NCBI RefSeq assembly: GCF_920984665.1
Contig: NZ_CAKLBP010000001.1
Coordinates: 400,858-464,857, forward strand
Direction: 5' to 3'
Origin: Pedobacter sp. Leaf170
GTDB taxonomy: Bacteria > Bacteroidota > Bacteroidia > Sphingobacteriales > Sphingobacteriaceae
Length of the DNA: 64,000 nucleotides
This document shows positions 4,521-57,483 of the stretch, one piece after another. The stretch's first letter is position 1. The number at the start of each line of letters is the position of its first letter. The position numbers were made by a program, and so were the translations under genes. The notes beneath the pieces were generated by a model, which was not told the origin of the DNA, ran no database searches, and saw only the letters and a program-made list of their open reading frames with translations.

Positions 4521-5741
4521 ATGTCAACAACAACAGAATTAGCGAAAATCGATGTCGACGAGATAGCTGAAATTATGCAGGGAGCATCTGCCGTGCTCAG
4601 TAAAAATGAAAATCTAGCCTTAGCAGCTGAAAAAGGCGGCCAACAATTGCTTGATACTATTGAAGCAGAAGGCATGAATGATGAGCTTGATTCTGCCGCG
4701 AACCAATGGCAAGTAAAAGCAAAAGATGCAGCCGGCATTTTAAATAAGAGAAGGGTACCCATCACCCAGGTGATTGACAAAATGAAAAGCTTCTTCACCG
4801 AACTTGAAGGTAAAATCGACCCTAAAAAACCAAACAGCGTATATTCAAAAATTCAAGCTAAACGGAATGAATGGGCTGGCGAAAAAGCTAAAAAAGCAAA
4901 GGCTGAACAAGACGCCATCATCAAAAAGCAAAACATTGCTAATGAAAAAATAAGTCTGGCTGCTGAAATTGCAACGCAAATTAAGCAGATTTATAACACT
5001 AAGCTATTCACCTTTAAAAAGTTCGTTACCGACACGTACGATAAATTGACCATTGATAATGCCGCTGAAATCAAAGGCAAAATCAATGATGTTAAAATCA
5101 ACTATCCGCTGGAGGCTTTCGATAAAATAGTGCCAACTGTTTTTGCTAAATACTTAAACGATGAACAAGTTGGTGAATTAATAGTTGAGTGCAGAGCCAA
5201 GCTTTACGATGATTGTGCAGCCAATTTCAGAGAGATTATGGAAGCTCATAAAAACGAAACGCTTGACCTGATACCTTCACGTATAAATGAACTTAAGGCA
5301 ATTGCAAAATCTAGCGAAGCCGAAAGAAAACGTTTAGAAGAGCAAGCCGAAGAGCGCAGGCTGCAAAAAGTTAAAGATGAGCAAGAGGCTGCAAAGCAAA
5401 AAGCCCTTGACGATGCGAAGGCGATTGAAGACCAGAAGAAAAAAGAAACTGCTGGCAATTTGTTCGATTCTGCAGCTGCCTTAGCTCAAGTCAAAGAAAG
5501 TACCGGCAAATCTCGTGAAGGTTATACCATCAACGTTCTCGATACAAGTGGTATTGCTGACTTGTTTATGTTCTATTTTGAAAAAGAAGGACGAGGGTTA
5601 ACAGTTGAAAAGTTCTTGAAAAAAGATTTCACCCAAATAAAAGCTTTTGCAGAAAAGTTTGCTCATAAAAATGATGAGAAAATTATCAGTGAGCACCTTC
5701 AATATGAAGAAACTTATAAAGCAATAGCATCTAAAGGATAA
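4521..5741 (+). CDS. Coiled-coil phage protein of the recombination module
   Basis: A 406-residue, highly charged protein with long heptad-rich stretches (about 110-145 and 255-320, the latter rich in Glu, Lys and Arg). The C-terminal 90 residues look globular. Large coiled-coil proteins of unknown function (for example DUF1351-type) often sit between recT and its exonuclease in phage operons, and position is the main clue here. No catalytic residues are visible. It could bridge or organise the recombination proteins. Confidence 0.55.
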   Translation: MSTTTELAKIDVDEIAEIMQGASAVLSKNENLALAAEKGGQQLLDTIEAEGMNDELDSAANQWQVKAKDAAGILNKRRVPITQVIDKMKSFFTELEGKIDPKKPNSVYSKIQAKRNEWAGEKAKKAKAEQDAIIKKQNIANEKISLAAEIATQIKQIYNTKLFTFKKFVTDTYDKLTIDNAAEIKGKINDVKINYPLEAFDKIVPTVFAKYLNDEQVGELIVECRAKLYDDCAANFREIMEAHKNETLDLIPSRINELKAIAKSSEAERKRLEEQAEERRLQKVKDEQEAAKQKALDDAKAIEDQKKKETAGNLFDSAAALAQVKESTGKSREGYTINVLDTSGIADLFMFYFEKEGRGLTVEKFLKKDFTQIKAFAEKFAHKNDEKIISEHLQYEETYKAIASKG

Positions 5742-8310: not shown

Positions 8311-8973
8311 ATGGCACAAACAAAAACAATTTCCAAAGAAGAGTTGGAAGAAAAGAAGGCCGCAGCTGCAGAGTCGTATGAGCTGAAAGCAGGCACGCAA
8401 ATCCGCATTTTAAAAGTTGGCGTAGGAAAAGTTGGATTAAACCTTGAGATTGAAAAGGCGGTTACCAGAATGTTTGCCAATGCCGAAGGTGTCGAAGAAT
8501 TAAGAACCTTTACCAATCTGGCTAAAGAACCAATGGCATTCCTGCCTCACCATGATTTTAATCTAGCATTAGAATTGCTTCGTTCGCATTTAATCATTCT
8601 ATGCGAACAGAAAGAATCGTTCGATATACATGGCAGAGTTTTAAGTCCTCAAGAGCTTGATAACTTTGAAGAGAAAGATAGCCCTTTAGCCAAGGTTAAG
8701 GTTACTGGTTTTGATATCTCAAGTGGTTATGGAATTATCATCACCGGCGCCAAAATAATTCGTGGCAAACAAGTGCTTTCCTTAAGTACCGGCCTCGTTC
8801 ACTTTGAAGGTTTTGACGAAGACTTTTATGAATTTGGTGATGAGCTTTTACACGTCGCCAAACATGCGATGAAAGAGGCTGAACTTTACTACAACGGCAA
8901 ATACATGCCAGATGCTCAGATGAAAATCGGATTCCAAGAAGAGGATCACGAAGACGATAATTCAACATTTTAA
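8311..8973 (+). CDS. Hypothetical protein with SSB-like acidic tail
   Basis: A 220-residue protein that I do not recognise by fold. The middle has beta-rich segments (LAKVKVTGFDISSGYGIIIT) and the C-terminus is EEDHEDDNSTF, an acidic tip ending in Phe like that of single-strand binding proteins. Together with its place among recombination and replication genes, this suggests a DNA-binding or recruitment role. No other SSB gene is evident in the window. The role is inference. Confidence 0.55.
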   Translation: MAQTKTISKEELEEKKAAAAESYELKAGTQIRILKVGVGKVGLNLEIEKAVTRMFANAEGVEELRTFTNLAKEPMAFLPHHDFNLALELLRSHLIILCEQKESFDIHGRVLSPQELDNFEEKDSPLAKVKVTGFDISSGYGIIITGAKIIRGKQVLSLSTGLVHFEGFDEDFYEFGDELLHVAKHAMKEAELYYNGKYMPDAQMKIGFQEEDHEDDNSTF

Positions 8974-9004: not shown

Positions 9005-9076
9005 GGCAAGTTACGCAAGCGGTAAGCGCATAGTCTGCAAAACTATTGTTCATCAGTTCGAATCTGATACTTGCCT
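9005..9076 (+). tRNA. tRNA-Cys (GCA)
   Basis: Acceptor GGCAAGT (9005-9011) pairs with ACTTGCC (9069-9075), and position 73 is U, as expected for Cys. The anticodon stem ATAGT/ACTAT encloses CTGCAAA with anticodon GCA, and the T arm ATCAG-TTCGAAT-CTGAT is perfect. CCA is not encoded, as is common in Bacteroidota. It lies inside the phage early operon, so it is phage-encoded and probably co-transcribed with its neighbours and released by processing. Confidence 0.92.
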
Positions 9077-9097
9077 CAAATTAATCGTAAACAGTAC

Positions 9098-11252: not shown

Positions 11253-13778
11253 ATGGAATTTATTAAACAAACATATCAAGATTTCATCGATAGCAAAATA
11301 AGCGAAACGCCCAAATCAGGGTTTGATACTGATGTTATCAGTCAGGTGTTATTCGGTCATCAGGCAGACACAGTAAAGTGGGCTGCTGATGGCGGAAACC
11401 GTGCTATCTTCGCCAGTTTTGGCATGGGCAAAAGTTTAATTCAGCTTGAACTTTGTCTTCAGGCTTTAAAAGCATACCCATGCGGCAAGGTTCTTATCAT
11501 CTGCCCACTAGGTGTGAAGCAAGAATTCAAACATGATGCGGAAGTGCTTTTAAAGCTTCAAGAACGTGGTTTATCGATGGAATACGTGAGAAGCAAGCAA
11601 GAACAAATTGAAAGTGCTGCAAACATTCACATCACAAATTATGAGCGTGTGCGTGATGGTGACTTCATGCTTGATATTTATAAAATGGTAACATTGGATG
11701 AAGCCTCTGCCCTGCGCTCTGTAGCTTCAAAAACTTATATTCAATTCCTGCAGAAGTTCAAAAACGTTAAACATAAGTTTGTTGCTACAGCTACACCTTC
11801 ACCTAACGATTACATTGAACTTTTGAACTACGCAGCGTTCTTAGGTATAATGGATGTTAGCCAGGCTAAAACAAGATTCTTTAAACGTGACTCTAAAAAA
11901 GCCGACCAATTAACAATACTTCCGAATATGGAACAGGAGTTTTGGTTATGGGTTCATAGTTGGGCATTATTTCTTCCAAAACCTTCTTACCTCGGTTATT
12001 CTGATGAAGGTTACGATTTGCCTGAATTAAAAGTTCACTGGCATTGTGTTAAAGTTGAGCAAAAAGATACGCCCATCGATGATCGCGGCCAATTAAAAAT
12101 GATTGCGGACCGTCCAAAAGGATTGGCGCCAGAGTCAGCTGTAAAGCGTGAAAGCATCAATGAACGAATACAGAAAGCGCTTGAGGTTATCGATACAGAA
12201 TCAAATTGGTTAATCTGGCACGGATTGGAGCGTGAACGTGTTGCAATCGAAAGAGCTTTTGATTGTACGACTGTATACGGTAATCAGGATGACGAGCCTA
12301 AAGAAAAGCTTCTTATGGGCTTCGCTAACGGTGAATATAAAATTCTTGCAACCAAAACATCAATTGCAGGCTCAGGGTGTAACTTCCAAAAACATTGTCA
12401 TAAAGCGTTCTTTTTAGGAATTGACCATAAATTTAACGATTTTATTCAAGCGATTCACCGTATTCACAGATTCGGTCAAAAGCATGGAGTTGAAATTCAC
12501 ATTGCTTATACAGAACAGGAAGAGCATATTAAAACCGACCTTTTAAGAAAATGGAAGCAACATGATGATTTGCTTGAAACTTTCAGAGCCATTATCGAGA
12601 AATACGGTTTATCTGCAAAAGATTCAATTGAAGAATTGAAACGCTCAAAAGGTGTTATAAGGCAAGAGGTAATTCAACCGAACTTCACTGCTATCAATAA
12701 TGACAACGTTTTAGAGATTGAGAACCGTCCTGATAACTCAGATGATTTACAAATCACATCGGTACCGTTCAGCACTCAATACGAATATTCAGCAAATTAC
12801 AACGACTTTGGGCATAACAAGGATAACGAGAGTTTTTTTGCTCAAATGGATTTCTTGCTGCCGCATAAACTAAGAGTACTTAAACCTGGTCGAGTATCCG
12901 CGGTTCATGTTAAAGACAGAATTATACCTGGTAATTTCTCAGGCAAAGGAATGTACACCACTTACCGGTTTTCTGATAAAGTGGCCGATGCATACGAAAA
13001 ACATGGCTTTGAGTTTATGGGAAGAATTTGCATCATTACCGATGTTGTAAGTGAAAACAATCAAACTTACCGTTTAGGCTGGTCAAAAAATGCTGTTGAT
13101 GGTACTGGCATGGGTGTAGGTTCAAGCGAATACATTTTGCTATTCCGCAAACTGCCAACAGACACCAGCAATTCTTTTGCGGATGTACCTGTGGCAAAAA
13201 GCAAGGACGAATACACCCGAGCAAGATGGCAAATAGATGCTAACGGATTCTGGCGCGCATCCGGTAATCGATTATTATCTCCAGAAGAAATCAGCAGGCA
13301 CGATTTAAAATATGCTATGCAGCTGATGAAAGGCGAAAGCAGAAACGAAGTATACGACTTTGACCGTCATGTTGCTATTGCTGAGGCTATGGAAAATGCA
13401 GGGAAATTACCCTCAGATTTTGCAGCAGTAGACCCTCAATCATGGAACGATGATGTGTGGACGGATGTTACAAGAATGAGGGGCATGAACACCCTTTTAG
13501 GCCAAGCAGGTAAAGACCAGCACATCTGCCCTCTTCCTTTCGATATCGTTGATAGATTAATCATCCGTTATTCGAACGAAGGCGAAACTGTTTCAGATTA
13601 CTTTGCCGGTGTATTTACCGTGCCGTATCGCTCACTCGTTCTGAACCGTAAAGGTTACGGAGTTGAGCTTAATCCATCTTATTTTCAAATTGGTAAGTCG
13701 TATTGCAACGAGATTGAGTACAAAAAAAATGTACCAACCCTGTTTGATATGTACCCTGAAGTATTGGAGGCTGTATAA
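11253..13778 (+). CDS. SNF2-type helicase fused to a beta-class DNA methyltransferase
   Basis: An 841-residue fusion. The N-terminal half is a helicase: ASFGMGKS Walker A (54-61), LDEASA Walker B (148-153), ATATPSP (178-184), and QAIHRIHRFGQK motif VI. The C-terminal half has methyltransferase motif IV as TSVPF (502-506) followed later by motif I SDYFAGVF (781-788) and the EL near NPSYF, the motif order of the beta class. Motif IV lacks the first Pro of the usual SPP(Y/F). Target base is probably N6-adenine or N4-cytosine. It may protect phage DNA while translocating. Confidence 0.82.
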   Translation: MEFIKQTYQDFIDSKISETPKSGFDTDVISQVLFGHQADTVKWAADGGNRAIFASFGMGKSLIQLELCLQALKAYPCGKVLIICPLGVKQEFKHDAEVLLKLQERGLSMEYVRSKQEQIESAANIHITNYERVRDGDFMLDIYKMVTLDEASALRSVASKTYIQFLQKFKNVKHKFVATATPSPNDYIELLNYAAFLGIMDVSQAKTRFFKRDSKKADQLTILPNMEQEFWLWVHSWALFLPKPSYLGYSDEGYDLPELKVHWHCVKVEQKDTPIDDRGQLKMIADRPKGLAPESAVKRESINERIQKALEVIDTESNWLIWHGLERERVAIERAFDCTTVYGNQDDEPKEKLLMGFANGEYKILATKTSIAGSGCNFQKHCHKAFFLGIDHKFNDFIQAIHRIHRFGQKHGVEIHIAYTEQEEHIKTDLLRKWKQHDDLLETFRAIIEKYGLSAKDSIEELKRSKGVIRQEVIQPNFTAINNDNVLEIENRPDNSDDLQITSVPFSTQYEYSANYNDFGHNKDNESFFAQMDFLLPHKLRVLKPGRVSAVHVKDRIIPGNFSGKGMYTTYRFSDKVADAYEKHGFEFMGRICIITDVVSENNQTYRLGWSKNAVDGTGMGVGSSEYILLFRKLPTDTSNSFADVPVAKSKDEYTRARWQIDANGFWRASGNRLLSPEEISRHDLKYAMQLMKGESRNEVYDFDRHVAIAEAMENAGKLPSDFAAVDPQSWNDDVWTDVTRMRGMNTLLGQAGKDQHICPLPFDIVDRLIIRYSNEGETVSDYFAGVFTVPYRSLVLNRKGYGVELNPSYFQIGKSYCNEIEYKKNVPTLFDMYPEVLEAV

Positions 13779-13998: not shown

Positions 13999-14610
13999 AT
14001 GAAAGTAGTTTATATCGCTCACCCAATCGGTGGCAACGTAAAATTTAACATTGAAAAAGTAATTAAGATTGTAGGCGAGTTAAACAGAACCGAGCCTGAT
14101 ATTATTCCTTTTGCACCATATTTAGTAGATTGCATGGCTTTGGATGATAACAAACCCGAAGAAAGGGCTCGTGGCTTTAAAAACAACTTTCATTACTTTA
14201 CATCTGGATTTGTAAAAGAGCTTAGGCTTTACGGCCGAAAAATTAGCAAAGGTATGGCACAAGAAGTTGAATGGGCACAATTAATGAATATCCCAATCAT
14301 TAATTGTATTTCTACCGATGAACCATTCACGGTTGATGAAAATCGAGTATTAAAAGTTGTTTCAGAAGTCACCAACGTACCTATTCAAAGAATTAAATCT
14401 GACAATAGATTGAAAAGTATTTCATTAGCCAGGCATCTTTTTGTTGGAACCTGTTTTCAATGGAATGTTAATGTTACACTAAAGAAAATGGGAGAAATGA
14501 TTAACCGTGACCATTCAACTATTCTTAATAGTAAAAGAGTTTACAATGAGTTATTATTCACTGACAAGCAGTTCGAAAAACTCACCCAGACAATTAACAG
14601 ATTACTATGA
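13999..14610 (+). CDS. DUF4406-like domain fused to DnaA domain IV
   Basis: A 203-residue protein with two parts. Residues 1-105 (VYIAHPIGG... KGMAQEVEWAQ) look like the DUF4406/nucleoside deoxyribosyltransferase-like fold. Residues 116-203 match the DnaA C-terminal double-strand DNA-binding domain: VVSEVTNVPIQRIKSDNR, then SLARHLF, then the signature INRDHSTIL (168-176). It has no AAA+ domain. It could bind DnaA-box-like sites at the phage origin or on the host. It is the last gene before a promoter and a structured RNA. Confidence 0.75.
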   Translation: MKVVYIAHPIGGNVKFNIEKVIKIVGELNRTEPDIIPFAPYLVDCMALDDNKPEERARGFKNNFHYFTSGFVKELRLYGRKISKGMAQEVEWAQLMNIPIINCISTDEPFTVDENRVLKVVSEVTNVPIQRIKSDNRLKSISLARHLFVGTCFQWNVNVTLKKMGEMINRDHSTILNSKRVYNELLFTDKQFEKLTQTINRLL

Positions 14611-14643
14611 TGAGGAACTTTTTTTTAAATCTAATTAATCGTA

Positions 14644-14674
14644 TTTGGTATATTAGTTATATTTTATACATTTG
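14644..14674 (+). promoter_or_regulatory. Phage promoter module, copy a
   Basis: TTTG at 14644-14647 and a perfect -7 box TACATTTG at 14667-14674, separated by 19 bases, match the Bacteroidota sigma factor consensus. The upstream AATCGTA is shared with the copies near 20717 and 29986. Predicted transcription starts near 14679, immediately before the structured RNA and not close to a start codon. Confidence 0.75.
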
Positions 14675-14679
14675 TTTTA

Positions 14680-14791
14680 AGATTGACACCTTAAAGAAAT
14701 TTCAATACTGTTCCCGTAATCGTTCTTCGTGCTTTCAGCACCAGAATAAGGCTGTCAATCTTTTGATTACGGGAACAGTATTACCTTTTTT
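14680..14791 (+). ncRNA. Candidate structured phage RNA
   Basis: Directly after a strong promoter lies a 112-base stretch with no credible coding. An 18-base perfect inverted repeat (14704-14721 with 14765-14782) encloses a hairpin GTGCT/AGCAC (14729-14741). A further pair, GATTGACA (14681-14688) with TGTCAATC (14753-14760), crosses the long stem, so the two either form a pseudoknot or compete as a switch. TTTTTT at 14786-14791 follows the stem, as in an intrinsic terminator. It may be a stand-alone small RNA or an attenuator for the replication genes at 14807. No known RNA family is recognised. Confidence 0.6.
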
Positions 14792-14806
14792 AATTCAACT
14801 ATAGCC

Positions 14807-15607
14807 ATGGCAGAAAACAAAAAATCTTTTGTTCTGTACGCAGACCTTATTTCAACTTTTGAGGAATTAGAAGATGTCGAAGCCGGCTTATTGGTCAAAC
14901 ATTTACTGAGATACGTTAACGATCAAAATCCAGAAGCTCCCAACAGATTAATTAAATTACTCTTCGAACCGATAAAATTACAGCTGAAACGTGACTTGCA
15001 TAAATGGGAAGAAGTTAAAGAGAACAAAAGCCAAGGCGGCCAAATCGGAAACTTAAAACGCTGGAATGTAGACATATACGAGAGATACACAAAAGGCGAA
15101 ATTAGTGTTGATGAAGCTTTAAAAATCGCTGAAAGTCGCAGAGCATCGCATACCGATAAAAATAATCGCATACCGATAGAAAGTGTCGCAGACGGTCGCA
15201 CATCATCGGATATGGTCGCATCAGTCGCTGTTACTGTTAATGATACTGTTAATGAGAATGTAACTGTTACTGTTAATGAGAATGTAATAAAGAAGGATAA
15301 TGGTGGGTCGAAAAGATTTTCTCCCCCTACACATACTCAGGTTTACGATTACTTTATTGAAAAAATAAACGATACGTTTTGGTCAGAATCTGAAGCAAAT
15401 CACCAGGCTGAAAAATTCATGAACTTTTACTCTTCAAAAAATTGGATGGTCGGAAAAAACAAAATGTCAATCTGGAAAAGTGCGGCCGCTAACTGGGTAC
15501 TAACATCAATCGAAAAACAAACCAACAATGGAAAATCAAAAACGAACACCTCAAGCCTTAAATCAAATAATGGCACCGCAGCTCCAAAAGATTTCGGCCA
15601 ATTATGA
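14807..15607 (+). CDS. DUF6291-like phage replication protein
   Basis: The N-terminal 75 residues (LYADLISTFEELEDVEAGLL... HLLRYVNDQNPEAP) fit the DUF6291 pattern found in phage replisome organisers. A low-complexity linker of VTVN/ENV units follows (about 140-165). The C-terminal part (VYDYFIEKIND... WKSAAANWV) resembles the end of DnaD-like or primosomal proteins. It precedes and overlaps a DnaC-like loader by 80 bases, so the pair probably brings the host DnaB helicase to the phage origin. Confidence 0.7.
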   Translation: MAENKKSFVLYADLISTFEELEDVEAGLLVKHLLRYVNDQNPEAPNRLIKLLFEPIKLQLKRDLHKWEEVKENKSQGGQIGNLKRWNVDIYERYTKGEISVDEALKIAESRRASHTDKNNRIPIESVADGRTSSDMVASVAVTVNDTVNENVTVTVNENVIKKDNGGSKRFSPPTHTQVYDYFIEKINDTFWSESEANHQAEKFMNFYSSKNWMVGKNKMSIWKSAAANWVLTSIEKQTNNGKSKTNTSSLKSNNGTAAPKDFGQL

Positions 15608-16391
15608 CCACATAATTCTAACCGAAGAAGAAGAACAATCTGCAATAGCTTTTGGCATTCACCACTTTAAAAAAAATAAAGCTGATGAGATATACAAGCA
15701 ACAGTATTTGAAAAAATTGAGAGAACCAAAAGTTTACAGAAAACTGTCTTGTCAGGAATTAAGGTCTGTTTTATGCAGTAAATACAATATCGCTGATGTA
15801 GCTGACGAACATTTACTGAAAGAATACCGTGATAGAAAAATCAAACCTTTTATTCTCGATGAAAGCAACCGTGATATTTTCAATCTCCTTTGCCAATACT
15901 TTTCTGATGATATCGCTTTTGAAAAAGACGGTCACTCACTTGAAAAAGGAATAATGCTTTTTGGTCCGGTTGGATGTGGCAAAACTTCGCTAATGAAAAT
16001 GTTCGCATTCAACACATCGAAACCATTCGGCGTAATATCATGCAGAACCATTGCTGATAAATATTCAAAAGACGGCTCAAATGCTTTGTTAGAATTTTCA
16101 AACATGCCGGCGTGTTACCCTGAGCAAAACTTTGGACTTACATCGCTTGGACGTTGCTTTGATGATTTAGGCACAGAAGATTCAAAAAAGAACTTCGGAA
16201 ATGAAGTAAATGTGATGCAAGATGTAATTTTTAAGATTTATGATAACGAATTGATAGGAAACTTTCACATCACCACAAACCTGAGCGGCTCTGAAATTGA
16301 GGAAGCCTACGGTTCAAGAATACGCTCTAGGCTTCGTGAAATGATGAATGTGCTCACTTTCGATAAGAATTCTAAAGACAGACGAGCTTAG
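15528..16391 (+). CDS. DnaC-like helicase loader ATPase
   Basis: A 287-residue AAA+ protein with Walker A MLFGPVGCGKTS (about 141-152) and a conserved DDLG acidic motif (about 205-208) followed by sensor-like TTNLSGSEI. The arginine-rich end EAYGSRIRSRLREM is typical of DnaC/IstB-type loaders. A later start at ATG 15570 would shorten the overlap with the upstream gene, but both starts still overlap. It likely loads DnaB with the DUF6291-like protein. Confidence 0.8.
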   Translation: MENQKRTPQALNQIMAPQLQKISANYDHIILTEEEEQSAIAFGIHHFKKNKADEIYKQQYLKKLREPKVYRKLSCQELRSVLCSKYNIADVADEHLLKEYRDRKIKPFILDESNRDIFNLLCQYFSDDIAFEKDGHSLEKGIMLFGPVGCGKTSLMKMFAFNTSKPFGVISCRTIADKYSKDGSNALLEFSNMPACYPEQNFGLTSLGRCFDDLGTEDSKKNFGNEVNVMQDVIFKIYDNELIGNFHITTNLSGSEIEEAYGSRIRSRLREMMNVLTFDKNSKDRRA

Positions 16392-26224: not shown

Positions 26225-26913
26225 TGGCAGATAAAAAACCTTTATACAAGCAATCTGAAACCGTAACCATAAAACGTTCACAGGTTAATTTTGCCGTTTA
26301 CAACCCAAAGAATCATACGGATGCGCAAAAGGCACAAATTAAGCGTAACATAAAAAGTGTTGGCTTTCTTGGTGGTGTAATCTGGAATAAGGCAACGGGA
26401 AATTTGATTGATGGGCATAAGCGTGTCCAAACATTAGACAGTATTCACCATTATGACGGTACCACAAAAACCGACTACGATTTGAAAGTCGAAATGGTTG
26501 AACTTGACCTCAAAACTGAAAAGGAACAGAACATTTTTCAAACAAAATCAAGAACAGAACTTGATAATGTTCTTTTAGGCAATATGCTCGATGGTATCGA
26601 TTACGACCTCGCAGGATTAGACGAGTTTGACTTAAACATGATTGCAGCTGAGTCACCAGCTTTCGATTTTGGCGGCAATGACGAGGTTAAAGAAGATATC
26701 AAAGAAATGGAACGTCCTTATGAAGAGCGCAAGCAGATGATTAAGGACATGAAAGCTCAGCAAAAAGAAAACACTATCAATAAATTTCAGGGTGACCCTT
26801 TCTTCACTTTGTCATTCGATAGCTTTGAGAACAAAGCCGAATTTCTTGAGCGTTTTGGCTTTAATCCTTCTGAAAAGTTTATTAAAGGTGAAATTTTCGC
26901 AGATAAATTATAA
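26224..26913 (+). CDS. ParB-like nuclease-domain protein
   Basis: A 229-residue protein. Residues 15-75 hold the ParB N-terminal fold with KSVGFLGGVIWNKATGNLID and DGHKR (63-67), the NTP-handling loop. The C-terminal part is charged, with a long helix (EERKQMIKDMKAQQKE). It is coupled to the PAPS reductase-like gene and overlaps TerS by one base, so it may mark or process DNA for packaging. DndB-type proteins share a DGQHR motif, a distant parallel. Confidence 0.75.
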   Translation: MADKKPLYKQSETVTIKRSQVNFAVYNPKNHTDAQKAQIKRNIKSVGFLGGVIWNKATGNLIDGHKRVQTLDSIHHYDGTTKTDYDLKVEMVELDLKTEKEQNIFQTKSRTELDNVLLGNMLDGIDYDLAGLDEFDLNMIAAESPAFDFGGNDEVKEDIKEMERPYEERKQMIKDMKAQQKENTINKFQGDPFFTLSFDSFENKAEFLERFGFNPSEKFIKGEIFADKL

Positions 26914-30026: not shown

Positions 30027-30099
30027 TGCGGAGTGGTAGCAGTTGGTAGCTCGTTGGGCTCATATCCCAGAGGTCGCAAGTTCGAGTCTTGCCTCCGCA
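30027..30099 (+). tRNA. tRNA-Met (CAT)
   Basis: Acceptor TGCGGAG (30027-30033) pairs with CTCCGCA (30093-30099). The anticodon loop CTCATAT in a TTGGG/CCCAG stem gives anticodon CAT, and the T arm GCAAG-TTCGAGT-CTTGC is perfect. CCA is not encoded. The body resembles elongator tRNA-Met; an Ile (lysidine) identity cannot be ruled out by eye. It has its own promoter and terminator. Confidence 0.9.
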
Positions 30100-30138
30100 T
30101 CTACTTTTCATAGTTTAGTTGAAGGTTTAGGTTGATTT

Positions 30139-55349: not shown

Positions 55350-55868
55350 ATGGAAAACTCACAAGGCCAAATTAGAGGTGGTGCCAATCTATACGGCGTG
55401 ACTTTAGCAGATAACATTAACAAAGCTTTTCCTCAGGTTAACTGTATATACGGTGGTGGAAACTTACATCTTTATCTACCTGATAGTCCGGGCTATAGCG
55501 AACGTAGCAAAGGGTTGCTGTATACCATGTTAGATGGTTTGCCTGAGATAGATGCACCACTACAAAGATTGCAGGTGATTGTCTATGTTAATGAATCAAT
55601 TCAATGCGTTACTATTATAAATCCATCAAAATTTGATGTAACTGCTTTGGATAATGCAAAAGAAAATGGATTAAGCTTTTCACAACCACCACCATCTCTA
55701 GAACAGTTAGAGCCTTTGCCACTTGACCATCCTTATTACACCGATAAGGATTATTTCAGAAAACAATCAAAGAAAAAGAAAGATGCGGTAACATTTGACG
55801 ATATCAAGAATCTACCAAACGTAAAGCCAATATTGGAAGAAATGAGAAGAGACGGCATTAAAATTTAA
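55350..55868 (+). CDS. Hypothetical protein next to the integrase
   Basis: A 172-residue protein with a beta-rich N-terminal half (CIYGGGNLHLYLPDSPGYSE) and a basic tail (FRKQSKKKKDAV). It ends 4 bases into the convergent integrase gene. No family recognised; a DNA-binding helper is possible given the basic stretch. Confidence 0.55.
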   Translation: MENSQGQIRGGANLYGVTLADNINKAFPQVNCIYGGGNLHLYLPDSPGYSERSKGLLYTMLDGLPEIDAPLQRLQVIVYVNESIQCVTIINPSKFDVTALDNAKENGLSFSQPPPSLEQLEPLPLDHPYYTDKDYFRKQSKKKKDAVTFDDIKNLPNVKPILEEMRRDGIKI

Positions 55869-57037
55869 AACTGCCGGCCTTTATTAAATTCTGTTTTATC
55901 CACATTTATTCCTAGGTCACGCATGTAAATCATTGTCATGTTTAGATTACTATGCCTGAATAATTTCATGATTTTATAAAGCTCTTCACCATCCTCGCCA
56001 AGGTGCACCGCTCTTGTGTGTTTATAGCAATATATTCCGTCACGTTCGGAAAGCTTCAGAATCTTTTTGTATGGCTTAAATAATCTTGAGAAATAATCAA
56101 GTCCTACTCTTTTTTCTCCGCCTAAAAAAGCACCCATCCTATTTCTCGCAAACACGAACCATTCGGGCGGCATTTCTGGTATTTTAAGTTCATAGAGTAG
56201 TTCTAAAAAATCAGGGTACAAAGGAATATATTCAGTTTTTCTATTCTTGGCAGTGCCGCTCTCAATTTTTAATGTCTTTTGCTTGAAGTTAAAATCCCCT
56301 ACTTTAATAAAGTTAGCTTCTGAAACATTACGCAAAGCGGCATAGTATATAAAGCTGCAGAATGTGAACAGTAGCTTATCATCATTCGCCAGCATCAATT
56401 CCTTTAGCTTTTTAAACTGGTAATCATTGAATGCTGAGTTACCAGGCTTTTCGATTGGCGCACGTTTAAGTTTTAACGTCGGAACTTTTTCAAGATAATC
56501 ATCGTAGTTATTGTAGAAATAATTGAAAAAAGTCGTGATATCTGTTAAGTAATGATTGTAGGTTTTACCTTTCCAATTTCGCTTTTCTTTATAGTGAGTT
56601 AAGAACTCGACAACGACACCTTTTCTAATATCCCGAAGTAAAACATCACCGTAACCATGTTCCTTTAGATAGTTTTTGAATAAATTAAGTTCAAGGGAAT
56701 ATTTGTGATAGGTGTTTGGTCTAACGTTCAATTCAGAAAGAAATTTATCAATGCAGAGAGAAACAGTTTTCTGTTTATCAAGCAGGTTTTGCATGACATT
56801 ATATTCTGCAAAAGGAGTGAAACCATCCTTTAACAAATCGGTTATAGCTTGAACAAAATCCTTTCCATAGTCTCTTCGTTCTTGCTTTGTCTTCAATTTG
56901 TTAAAACCAGTATTATACCTGAATCGGATATACTTGCCTGTGACCGGATGCTGGTATTTAATCCACACAAACCAATCTTTGGTCATGTCACCACCAGCTG
57001 GTTCATAAAGAAAAGGACCTTCCCACTTAGTTTTCAC
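55865..57037 (-). CDS. int: Tyrosine integrase
   Basis: A 390-residue recombinase. The catalytic set is visible: Arg236 in YYAALRNVSEA, Lys in TAKNRKT, His340 and Arg342 in CYKHTRA, His362 in FRHSNLN and Tyr371 in MIYMRD. The N-terminal 190 residues are the SAM-like core-binding and arm domains. It sits 81 bases from ssrA, which is therefore the attachment gene. The second box has RH instead of the usual GH. Confidence 0.92.
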   Translation of the reverse strand: MKTKWEGPFLYEPAGGDMTKDWFVWIKYQHPVTGKYIRFRYNTGFNKLKTKQERRDYGKDFVQAITDLLKDGFTPFAEYNVMQNLLDKQKTVSLCIDKFLSELNVRPNTYHKYSLELNLFKNYLKEHGYGDVLLRDIRKGVVVEFLTHYKEKRNWKGKTYNHYLTDITTFFNYFYNNYDDYLEKVPTLKLKRAPIEKPGNSAFNDYQFKKLKELMLANDDKLLFTFCSFIYYAALRNVSEANFIKVGDFNFKQKTLKIESGTAKNRKTEYIPLYPDFLELLYELKIPEMPPEWFVFARNRMGAFLGGEKRVGLDYFSRLFKPYKKILKLSERDGIYCYKHTRAVHLGEDGEELYKIMKLFRHSNLNMTMIYMRDLGINVDKTEFNKGRQF

Positions 57038-57099: not shown

Positions 57100-57117
57100 T
57101 AATCAGGCTTTTAAATG

Positions 57118-57147
57118 TGGAGCCGAAGGGAGTCGAACCCTTGTCCA
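57118..57147. other. Putative attachment core in the ssrA 3' end
   Basis: Phages of this kind recombine within the T-arm and acceptor part of tmRNA. The conserved stretch around 57118-57147 is the likely core. The other copy would be on the left, outside the window, so the exact crossover cannot be read here. Confidence 0.45.
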
Positions 57148-57483
57148 GTTGTGAGATAACCTATACCTTCTACATGCTTATTTTTCAATTAATTTTCGAG
57201 AAATAAACGGGCTGAAAACCGACCTTGTTTAAATCCTTAGATACTTTATCTCACCTTAAGCCATACCTTCTTAAGGCCAGCACTGTTATATCGATGCTCC
57301 GGATTCTAACCTAACAATGCAGCAGTTAGAGGAACAAAAGCTATGCTAATTCTAAATTAGGCAGCTAAGGCGTAGTTATTTTCGCCAACTATTGTTTTGA
57401 ACGTTCTCTTTAAAGTGCTCTCCGTACAACGCACTGCATGCTAACATAACCTTCGCCACCCTGTCAAATCCAAGAACGGCCCC
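57118..57483 (-). ncRNA. ssrA: tmRNA, attachment gene of the prophage
   Basis: The 5' end GGGGCCG (57477-57483) pairs with the 3' end GGCTCC (57119-57124), with TTCGACTCCC as T-loop. The tag frame (57386 back to 57357) encodes GENNYALAA followed by TAA, and adding CCA completes the molecule. A T-run-free 3' flank leads into the prophage. Integration at the 3' end keeps the gene functional. tmRNA rescues stalled ribosomes and tags their products for proteolysis. Confidence 0.95.

Follow-up and report, generated by a model that had tools for sequence, protein, structure and literature searches.

Matching loops in a predicted leader RNA module before the replication genes of a Pedobacter prophage and before early genes of other phages

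The window analysed here, a 64,000-nt stretch of the Pedobacter sp. Leaf170 genome, carries prophage genes for terminase, portal, major head and tape-measure proteins, together with an integrase gene (55865-57037). The integrase gene adjoins the tmRNA gene (57117-57483, minus strand), and the prophage therefore probably sits at the tmRNA gene. By its sequence setting, the region described below belongs to this prophage. A candidate transcriptional regulator lies at 860-1648 (PHROG match, phrog_8), two tRNA genes (Cys, Met) lie within the prophage at 9005-9077 and 30027-30101, and a gene at 11253-13778 encodes an SNF2-like helicase fused to an N6/N4 DNA methylase. On the plus strand, the gene at 13999-14610 encodes DUF7768 fused to the C-terminal (domain IV) HTH of DnaA (Pfam), a protein without a relative found in IMG/VR; its DUF7768 part weakly matches nucleoside deoxyribosyltransferase (phrog_355). 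Next on the same strand come a DUF6291 gene (14807-15607; Pfam, 4.5e-19), which is named 'replication protein' in some Flavobacterium phage records, and a gene for a DnaC-like helicase loader (15528-16391; phrog_50, 6.4e-15; AAA by Pfam).

Between the DnaA-fusion gene and the DUF6291 gene lies a predicted leader whose elements are all read on the plus strand. The original prediction had placed a strong promoter at 14644-14674, and this reading holds: a -33 box TTTG (14644-14647) and a -7 box TACATTTG (14667-14674) are set 19 nt apart (TTTG-N19-TACATTTG), in agreement with the Bacteroidetes sigma-A type consensus of Flavobacterium johnsoniae, TTTG at -33 and TANNTTTG at -7, as given in the available text of PMC6847099. 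In that text TANNTTTG covers -12 to -5, and taking the G of the -7 box as -5 puts the predicted +1 at 14679. The 5' strand of a crossing, or kissing, helix begins at this very position (K5, AAGATTGACA, 14679-14688), so that K5 would be the extreme 5' end of the RNA. A possible hairpin A (TTTTAAG/CTTAAAG, 14675-14696) was picked up by folding and by the scanner described below; because most of its 5' strand precedes the predicted +1, the window's RNA may lack this hairpin. After a short A/T-rich spacer (14697-14703) comes the terminator-like hairpin B, with its 5' arm at 14704-14721, an additional inner hairpin inside the loop (14722-14747, seen in folds), the 3' strand of the crossing helix within loop B (K3, TGTCAATCTT, 14753-14762) and the 3' arm at 14765-14782. 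A T6 tract follows at 14786-14791, after a gap of 2-3 nt that may weaken termination, and the DUF6291 start codon lies 15 nt past this tract.

Most of the structure that had been proposed from the letters is borne out. The long stem pairs over 18 bp at 100%; in 200 dinucleotide shuffles of 14600-14830, perfect inverted repeats reached 10 at most. The inner hairpin and the T6 tract are likewise present. A second helix does cross the long stem, with a length of 10 perfect base pairs (K5 being 100% complementary to K3) instead of the 8 proposed, and can be extended to 14 bp, reaching 14748, around one bulged base. The statement that the region holds no credible gene needs the correction that a 65-aa open frame (14607-14804) runs through it. 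Folding of 14675-14800 gave z = -6.66, with none of 200 shuffles equally stable. In a prefix fold of 14679-14764 (and also to 14763), K5 is paired with K3 at -21.4 kcal/mol, inner hairpin included, while the fold of the full leader favours hairpin B at -34.9 kcal/mol. A simple terminator scan restricted to loops of 3-8 listed no terminator in this leader.

By direct similarity the element appears singular. DNA searches returned only the element itself in its own genome, only short matches besides its own copy among 198 relatives (lowest E 4.6e-4 over 31 nt) and only six short matches in phage records, and an exact-pattern search of IMG/VR gave no match. Rfam recovered only the tmRNA and two tRNAs at gathering scores over the whole window and nothing in 10 related loci; permissive settings on 14600-14830 added nine matches far below gathering scores, none of them c4. 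The earlier remark that no known family is recognizable thus stands against Rfam 15 for the module of the window and the 10 related loci. A covariance model built from 16 modules captured hairpin B alone and gave one weak match in 198 related genomes, with no convincing module there; as it missed the window's own copy, this model cannot show absence. For DUF6291 itself, 5 genomes out of 145 in the genus and 8 out of 395 in the class gave a match, the Leaf170 genome being counted in both. One relative from the genus (L115) showed no module ahead of its DUF6291 start, and the N-terminal motif located no start in three further loci (L112, L113, L116). Nothing equatable with the module was found in the available text on a set of 104 motifs (PMC2864571) or in that on a human-microbiome motif set (PMC8040213), the latter comparison covering motifs other than HMP_4078, a palindromic candidate that the same text places near Bacteroidetes phage genes. 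Among the titles and abstract beginnings listed by searches of open-access literature, none described such a module in print.

As judged from sequence, the exact letters of the window element are unique and its architecture is not. In regions 5' of DUF6291 genes on IMG/VR contigs, which were the source of the class, and before other early genes in many phages, we found the same order: a TAnnTTTG promoter box, hairpin A, often an A-rich spacer, hairpin B, a U-tract and an open frame. A stretch in the loop of the terminator-like hairpin B is complementary to loop A, with letters unrelated between phages. A scanner for this order, applied to 241 loci (counts include some contigs present twice), returned 72 hits on the matching strand, 3 on the opposite strand and 1 in reversed sequence at scores below -34, and 45, 0 and 0 at scores below -38. 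Its background consists of lone matches of -33 to -35 in genes, on the opposite strand or in reversed controls, for example at 8661 in the window and at -34 in the reversed records of the phages 6H and B124-14. From 52 non-redundant modules listed, 50 were kept; the two dropped (L123_279 and L153_10271) were weak and had no open frame within 50 nt. Scores of the kept modules lie below -38 for 28, from -38 to -34 for 19 and weaker for 3, and given the scanner background a small number of the weakest could be chance matches. Parsed A hairpins start -3 to 25 nt past the box, 22 of the 50 at 4-7 nt, which is at or just past the predicted +1, and 12 of the 50 before it. Several modules that are otherwise unrelated have an A-rich spacer like AAAAACATTAT linking hairpin A to hairpin B (e.g., L187 5563-5579), a recurrence suggestive of groove contacts or of a site for a protein. 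In six loci (L213, L215, L090, L098, L228, L244) from different module groups, the lower and inner stems of B are separated by an asymmetric internal loop, AGTA(A)/GAA(A), possibly a motif of the UAA/GAN type. Three elemo loci (L253, L254, L258) have a tRNA gene (1793-1866) immediately upstream of the kissing module.

The position of the modules relative to genes is regular. In all 50 kept modules, an ATG frame of at least 40 aa begins 5-50 nt (median 17) 3' of hairpin B, as against 971 of 4000 positions drawn at random from the same loci; the frame is DUF6291-like in 22 of the 50. Seven other following frames were scanned against Pfam: two had no match and five matched, namely HNH, two helicases (one of them methylase-fused), MUG113/T5orf172 and ATPase/GNAT. 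A gene of the same make-up as the helicase-methylase gene of the window also comes after a module in L040 (960-3176). This positioning fits the replication-control role that the original prediction had offered as one possibility. The other role it offered was that of an anti-host small RNA, and a free-standing RNA acting on messages of the host or of other phages would indeed share the anatomy of a small RNA gene, with a promoter, about 110 nt and a terminator. An independent gene, however, has no need of a site 5-50 nt before an open frame, and the kissing strands give 42 different strings (some overlapping) over the 50 modules, so that we regard this role as very improbable. The paired loops vary widely among phages yet stay complementary, which leaves the anti-host part of the earlier reading unsupported; its other part, a structured, promoter-driven RNA with two crossing helices near replication genes, is supported by sequence. 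The same diversity of kissing strings, together with an alignment of 16 modules from different groups in which invariant columns fall nearly all in the promoter box and no conserved ligand-binding sequence appears, led us to reject a metabolite riboswitch. A CRISPR or retron RNA was rejected as well, no such gene being present among ten neighbouring proteins scanned.

Complementarity to loop B was also evaluated in a sample in which it had played no part in selection. From 160 DUF6291-like starts, located by an N-terminal motif with no profile check, we obtained 102 non-redundant upstream regions, of which 33 had a promoter and a terminator picked by energy alone, the loop match not being used; the other 69 lay outside the criteria of the script, and some of them (L078, L120) have a hairpin pair without a promoter box. 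Each of the 33 regions has, ahead of hairpin B, a stretch complementary to loop B with an energy of -10 kcal/mol or better; this stretch was free to lie outside a hairpin loop. One of the 33 is the window's own copy, and 12 belong to a single related group. The match reached p<=0.05 against 200 shuffles of loop B in 32 of the 33, and the median pairing energy was -14.3 kcal/mol, versus -7.6 kcal/mol after loops were swapped between loci.

Compensatory changes in related phages, which had been named beforehand as the check on the fold, are present, the crossing helix included. In an alignment of 12 related modules (A2), 98.5% of cells are paired, and the covariation score of 0.283 exceeds all 500 shuffles (0.126) and every slid control (0.035-0.067); at the centre of the kissing helix, 7 modules have AU, 3 CG and 2 GC. 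Of five measures on this alignment, two were unexceptional: 25 of 500 shuffles were as high for pairs changed on both sides, and 216 of 500 for further pair types. Related modules were also compared in 13 disjoint pairs; some of these share a group, and all modules had been pre-selected for the kissing helix and thus lean toward intact ones. Among the 90 base pairs of that helix, 12 changes are compensated, 1 is one-sided and none is broken. Stem B, over 153 pairs, has 13 compensated, 11 one-sided and 6 broken changes (Fisher p=0.003 for kissing helix versus stem B), and hairpin A, over 70 pairs, has 8, 5 and 8, being less well kept than the other helices. From these comparisons, the kissing pairs appear to remain strictly complementary. 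The idea that the loops evolve faster than the stems is unsupported, with 13% compensated pairs in the kissing helix and 8.5% in stem B (p=0.28). G-U pairs in stem B point to an RNA. Together with the promoter and U-tract, the orientation on one strand, the occurrence of two modules in some phages and the placement of modules before helicase, HNH and methylase genes, these G-U intermediates speak against a function as DNA, for example as an origin hairpin or an inverted repeat bound by protein, which the long perfect inverted repeat beside replication genes might otherwise suggest and which we consider the least probable explanation of all. That the modules form one structure class is, on these sequence comparisons, very probable.

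Strict pairing of the kissing helix would also be expected if the module were a plain terminator with a stabilizing pseudoknot, in which the kissing contact folds, protects or strengthens the structure without any switch. The spacers are often A-rich, and in a crude length model they are long enough in 42 of the 50 modules for both helices to coexist in a stacked line; exclusion of one helix by the other is accordingly not forced, and the notion that geometry imposes it finds no support in this model. A plain terminator placed right after a promoter and right before a gene would presumably silence that gene, however, and an unregulated terminator should not need variable matched loops, which together make this explanation unlikely. 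The reading we prefer, and hold to be somewhat probable, is that the leader of the window is a transcription attenuator that would decide read-through into the replication genes. Two attenuator traits are at hand: by sequence, a promoter-proximal intrinsic terminator lies between the promoter and the first gene, and by prediction from the folds of the window, an alternative structure can precede the terminator.

In such an attenuator, transcription would start at about 14679 and the crossing helix would form first, since both of its strands are transcribed earlier than the 3' arm of the terminator; closure of the terminator would then require this helix to give way or to be accommodated. While held, the crossing helix would delay or strain the terminator, and read-through would be favoured. 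Capture of the 5' strand or of the loop by another partner would instead let the terminator close and release a leader of about 110 nt. The likeliest capturing partner would be the loop of an already terminated sister leader, for the loops match their own partner and a released leader is thus a natural candidate. The result would be a loop-specific negative feedback on the replication genes, like P4 CI or pT181 control. We put forward this last part, feedback in trans by the terminated leader on sister transcripts, as a tentative proposal by analogy with known systems.

Ten named phage records were scanned (50 of 61 kb for elemoC and 20 of 72 kb for phi13:2). Six of them (elemoC, 11b, Harreka_1, tooticki6-1, hemulen6-1 and phi13:2) had been picked for having DUF6291; the first five contain a module by scan, and phi13:2 passes the 33-region complementarity test and fails the scanner. 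Among the other four, a module was found only in P12002L, before a 'primosomal protein' gene with an HTH_36 domain, and the scan accepted none in 6H, P12024S or B124-14. A match in B124-14 at 2970 (-33) was judged to be chance, being on the strand opposite to nearly all genes of that phage; the matches in tooticki6-1 at 11590 (-33) and in P12002L (-36) were accepted for their position and form no less than for their score. Two modules are present in tooticki6-1, and the two in hemulen6-1 are identical to them. Among close isolates, elemoA_1-9A, elemoA_2-5C and elemoE_6-9C have near-identical DNA further upstream and differ in the module, with the matched loop words TGAGAGC, GTGAGATG and GTGGAGG, respectively. 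The corresponding words are GTGAGACG in tooticki, GTGAGAAG in morran and GTGGAACG in mumin and snusmum, the last two phages having a helicase gene after the module instead. Between tooticki and mumin the terminator stem is kept, and GTGAGACG is replaced by GTGGAACG along with its partner.

These replacements are what would be expected if the main product were a small terminated RNA acting in trans as a self-specific repressor, for superinfection immunity or copy-number control, with the loops as specificity tags. Loop pairs are compensated and differ in close isolates, as in the elemo set and between tooticki and mumin, and where one phage has two modules (five phage groups and also tooticki) these carry different loops, though this is expected as well if loops vary randomly. 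Further copies of whole loop words number 0-2 in five phage records (0.0-0.7 expected), so that a sister leader would be the obvious partner; the highest counts are for one word each in elemoC and hemulen (2 further copies, 0.4 expected). The additional exact copies, which are possible second targets, lie at 26774 and 44073 on the minus strand in elemoC (L242) and at 4702 and 19523 in hemulen (L246). Against a self-specific repressor, the prophage of the window has a candidate protein regulator (the phrog_8 gene at 860-1648), and phages of the Flavobacterium hosts LMO6 and LMO9 often have one common module: of 46 matching records from these hosts, RefSeq copies included, 28 carry one practically identical module, which is no help to a specificity role. 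We consider such a repressor as the main product possible and doubtful.

Attenuation as we favour it has parallels among known control systems. The C4 RNA of P1/P7 is of the same kind as P4 CI immunity, and the pT181 attenuator is located before a replication gene. RNAI and RNAII of ColE1 are two separate RNAs from opposite strands that meet in loop-loop contacts of ~7 bp, with the loops serving as incompatibility tags and the contact involving no terminator. For P4 CI RNA (seqA-seqC), the available text of PMC4825925 describes a short RNA from the leader of the replication operon and premature termination of the replication genes. Complementary segments within one replication-operon leader are a feature that the module shares with P4 CI and C4. 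The module differs from them in that the terminator-like hairpin itself bears the matching loop, in having no Rfam match, c4 included, and in that some phages have two modules. In pT181-type control, a kissing contact of a hairpin with a leader hairpin sets transcription attenuation (available text of PMC3753616), whereas the partner loop of the module is on the same strand and in the same leader; a search for an antisense promoter on the opposite strand, covering boxes of the TAnnTTTG type, found none within 14679-14806. The module also resembles IsrK of the Salmonella prophage Gifsy-1, for which PMC4825925, in its available text, describes a promoter, a short RNA reaching to a rho-independent terminator and read-through into phage genes: both have a prophage promoter, a short leader with a terminator and phage genes downstream. 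Pairing of a 5' hairpin with a terminator loop is not described for IsrK in that text. As far as its sequence can tell, what is new in the module is that a 5' loop and a terminator loop match each other and that the sequence turns over from phage to phage; its working would be like that of known attenuators.

A class of RNAs diverse in sequence, conserved in architecture and placed before replication genes in many phages would, if true, represent a general control point of phage replication, and the named cases are phages of flavobacteria, a group whose phage biology is little known. More speculatively, Bacteroidetes phages may share an RNA-only incompatibility system in which replication operons, and other early ones, begin with a kissing-loop leader that, once terminated, silences every sister transcript with the same loop. 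If so, the loop sequence, and not a protein, would define copy-control or superinfection groups, and related phages would switch group through compensated loop changes. The natural sets of matched, differing loop attenuators would open RNA-based immunity or copy control to direct tests in isolated phages, and such loop-attenuator pairs could serve as orthogonal control parts.
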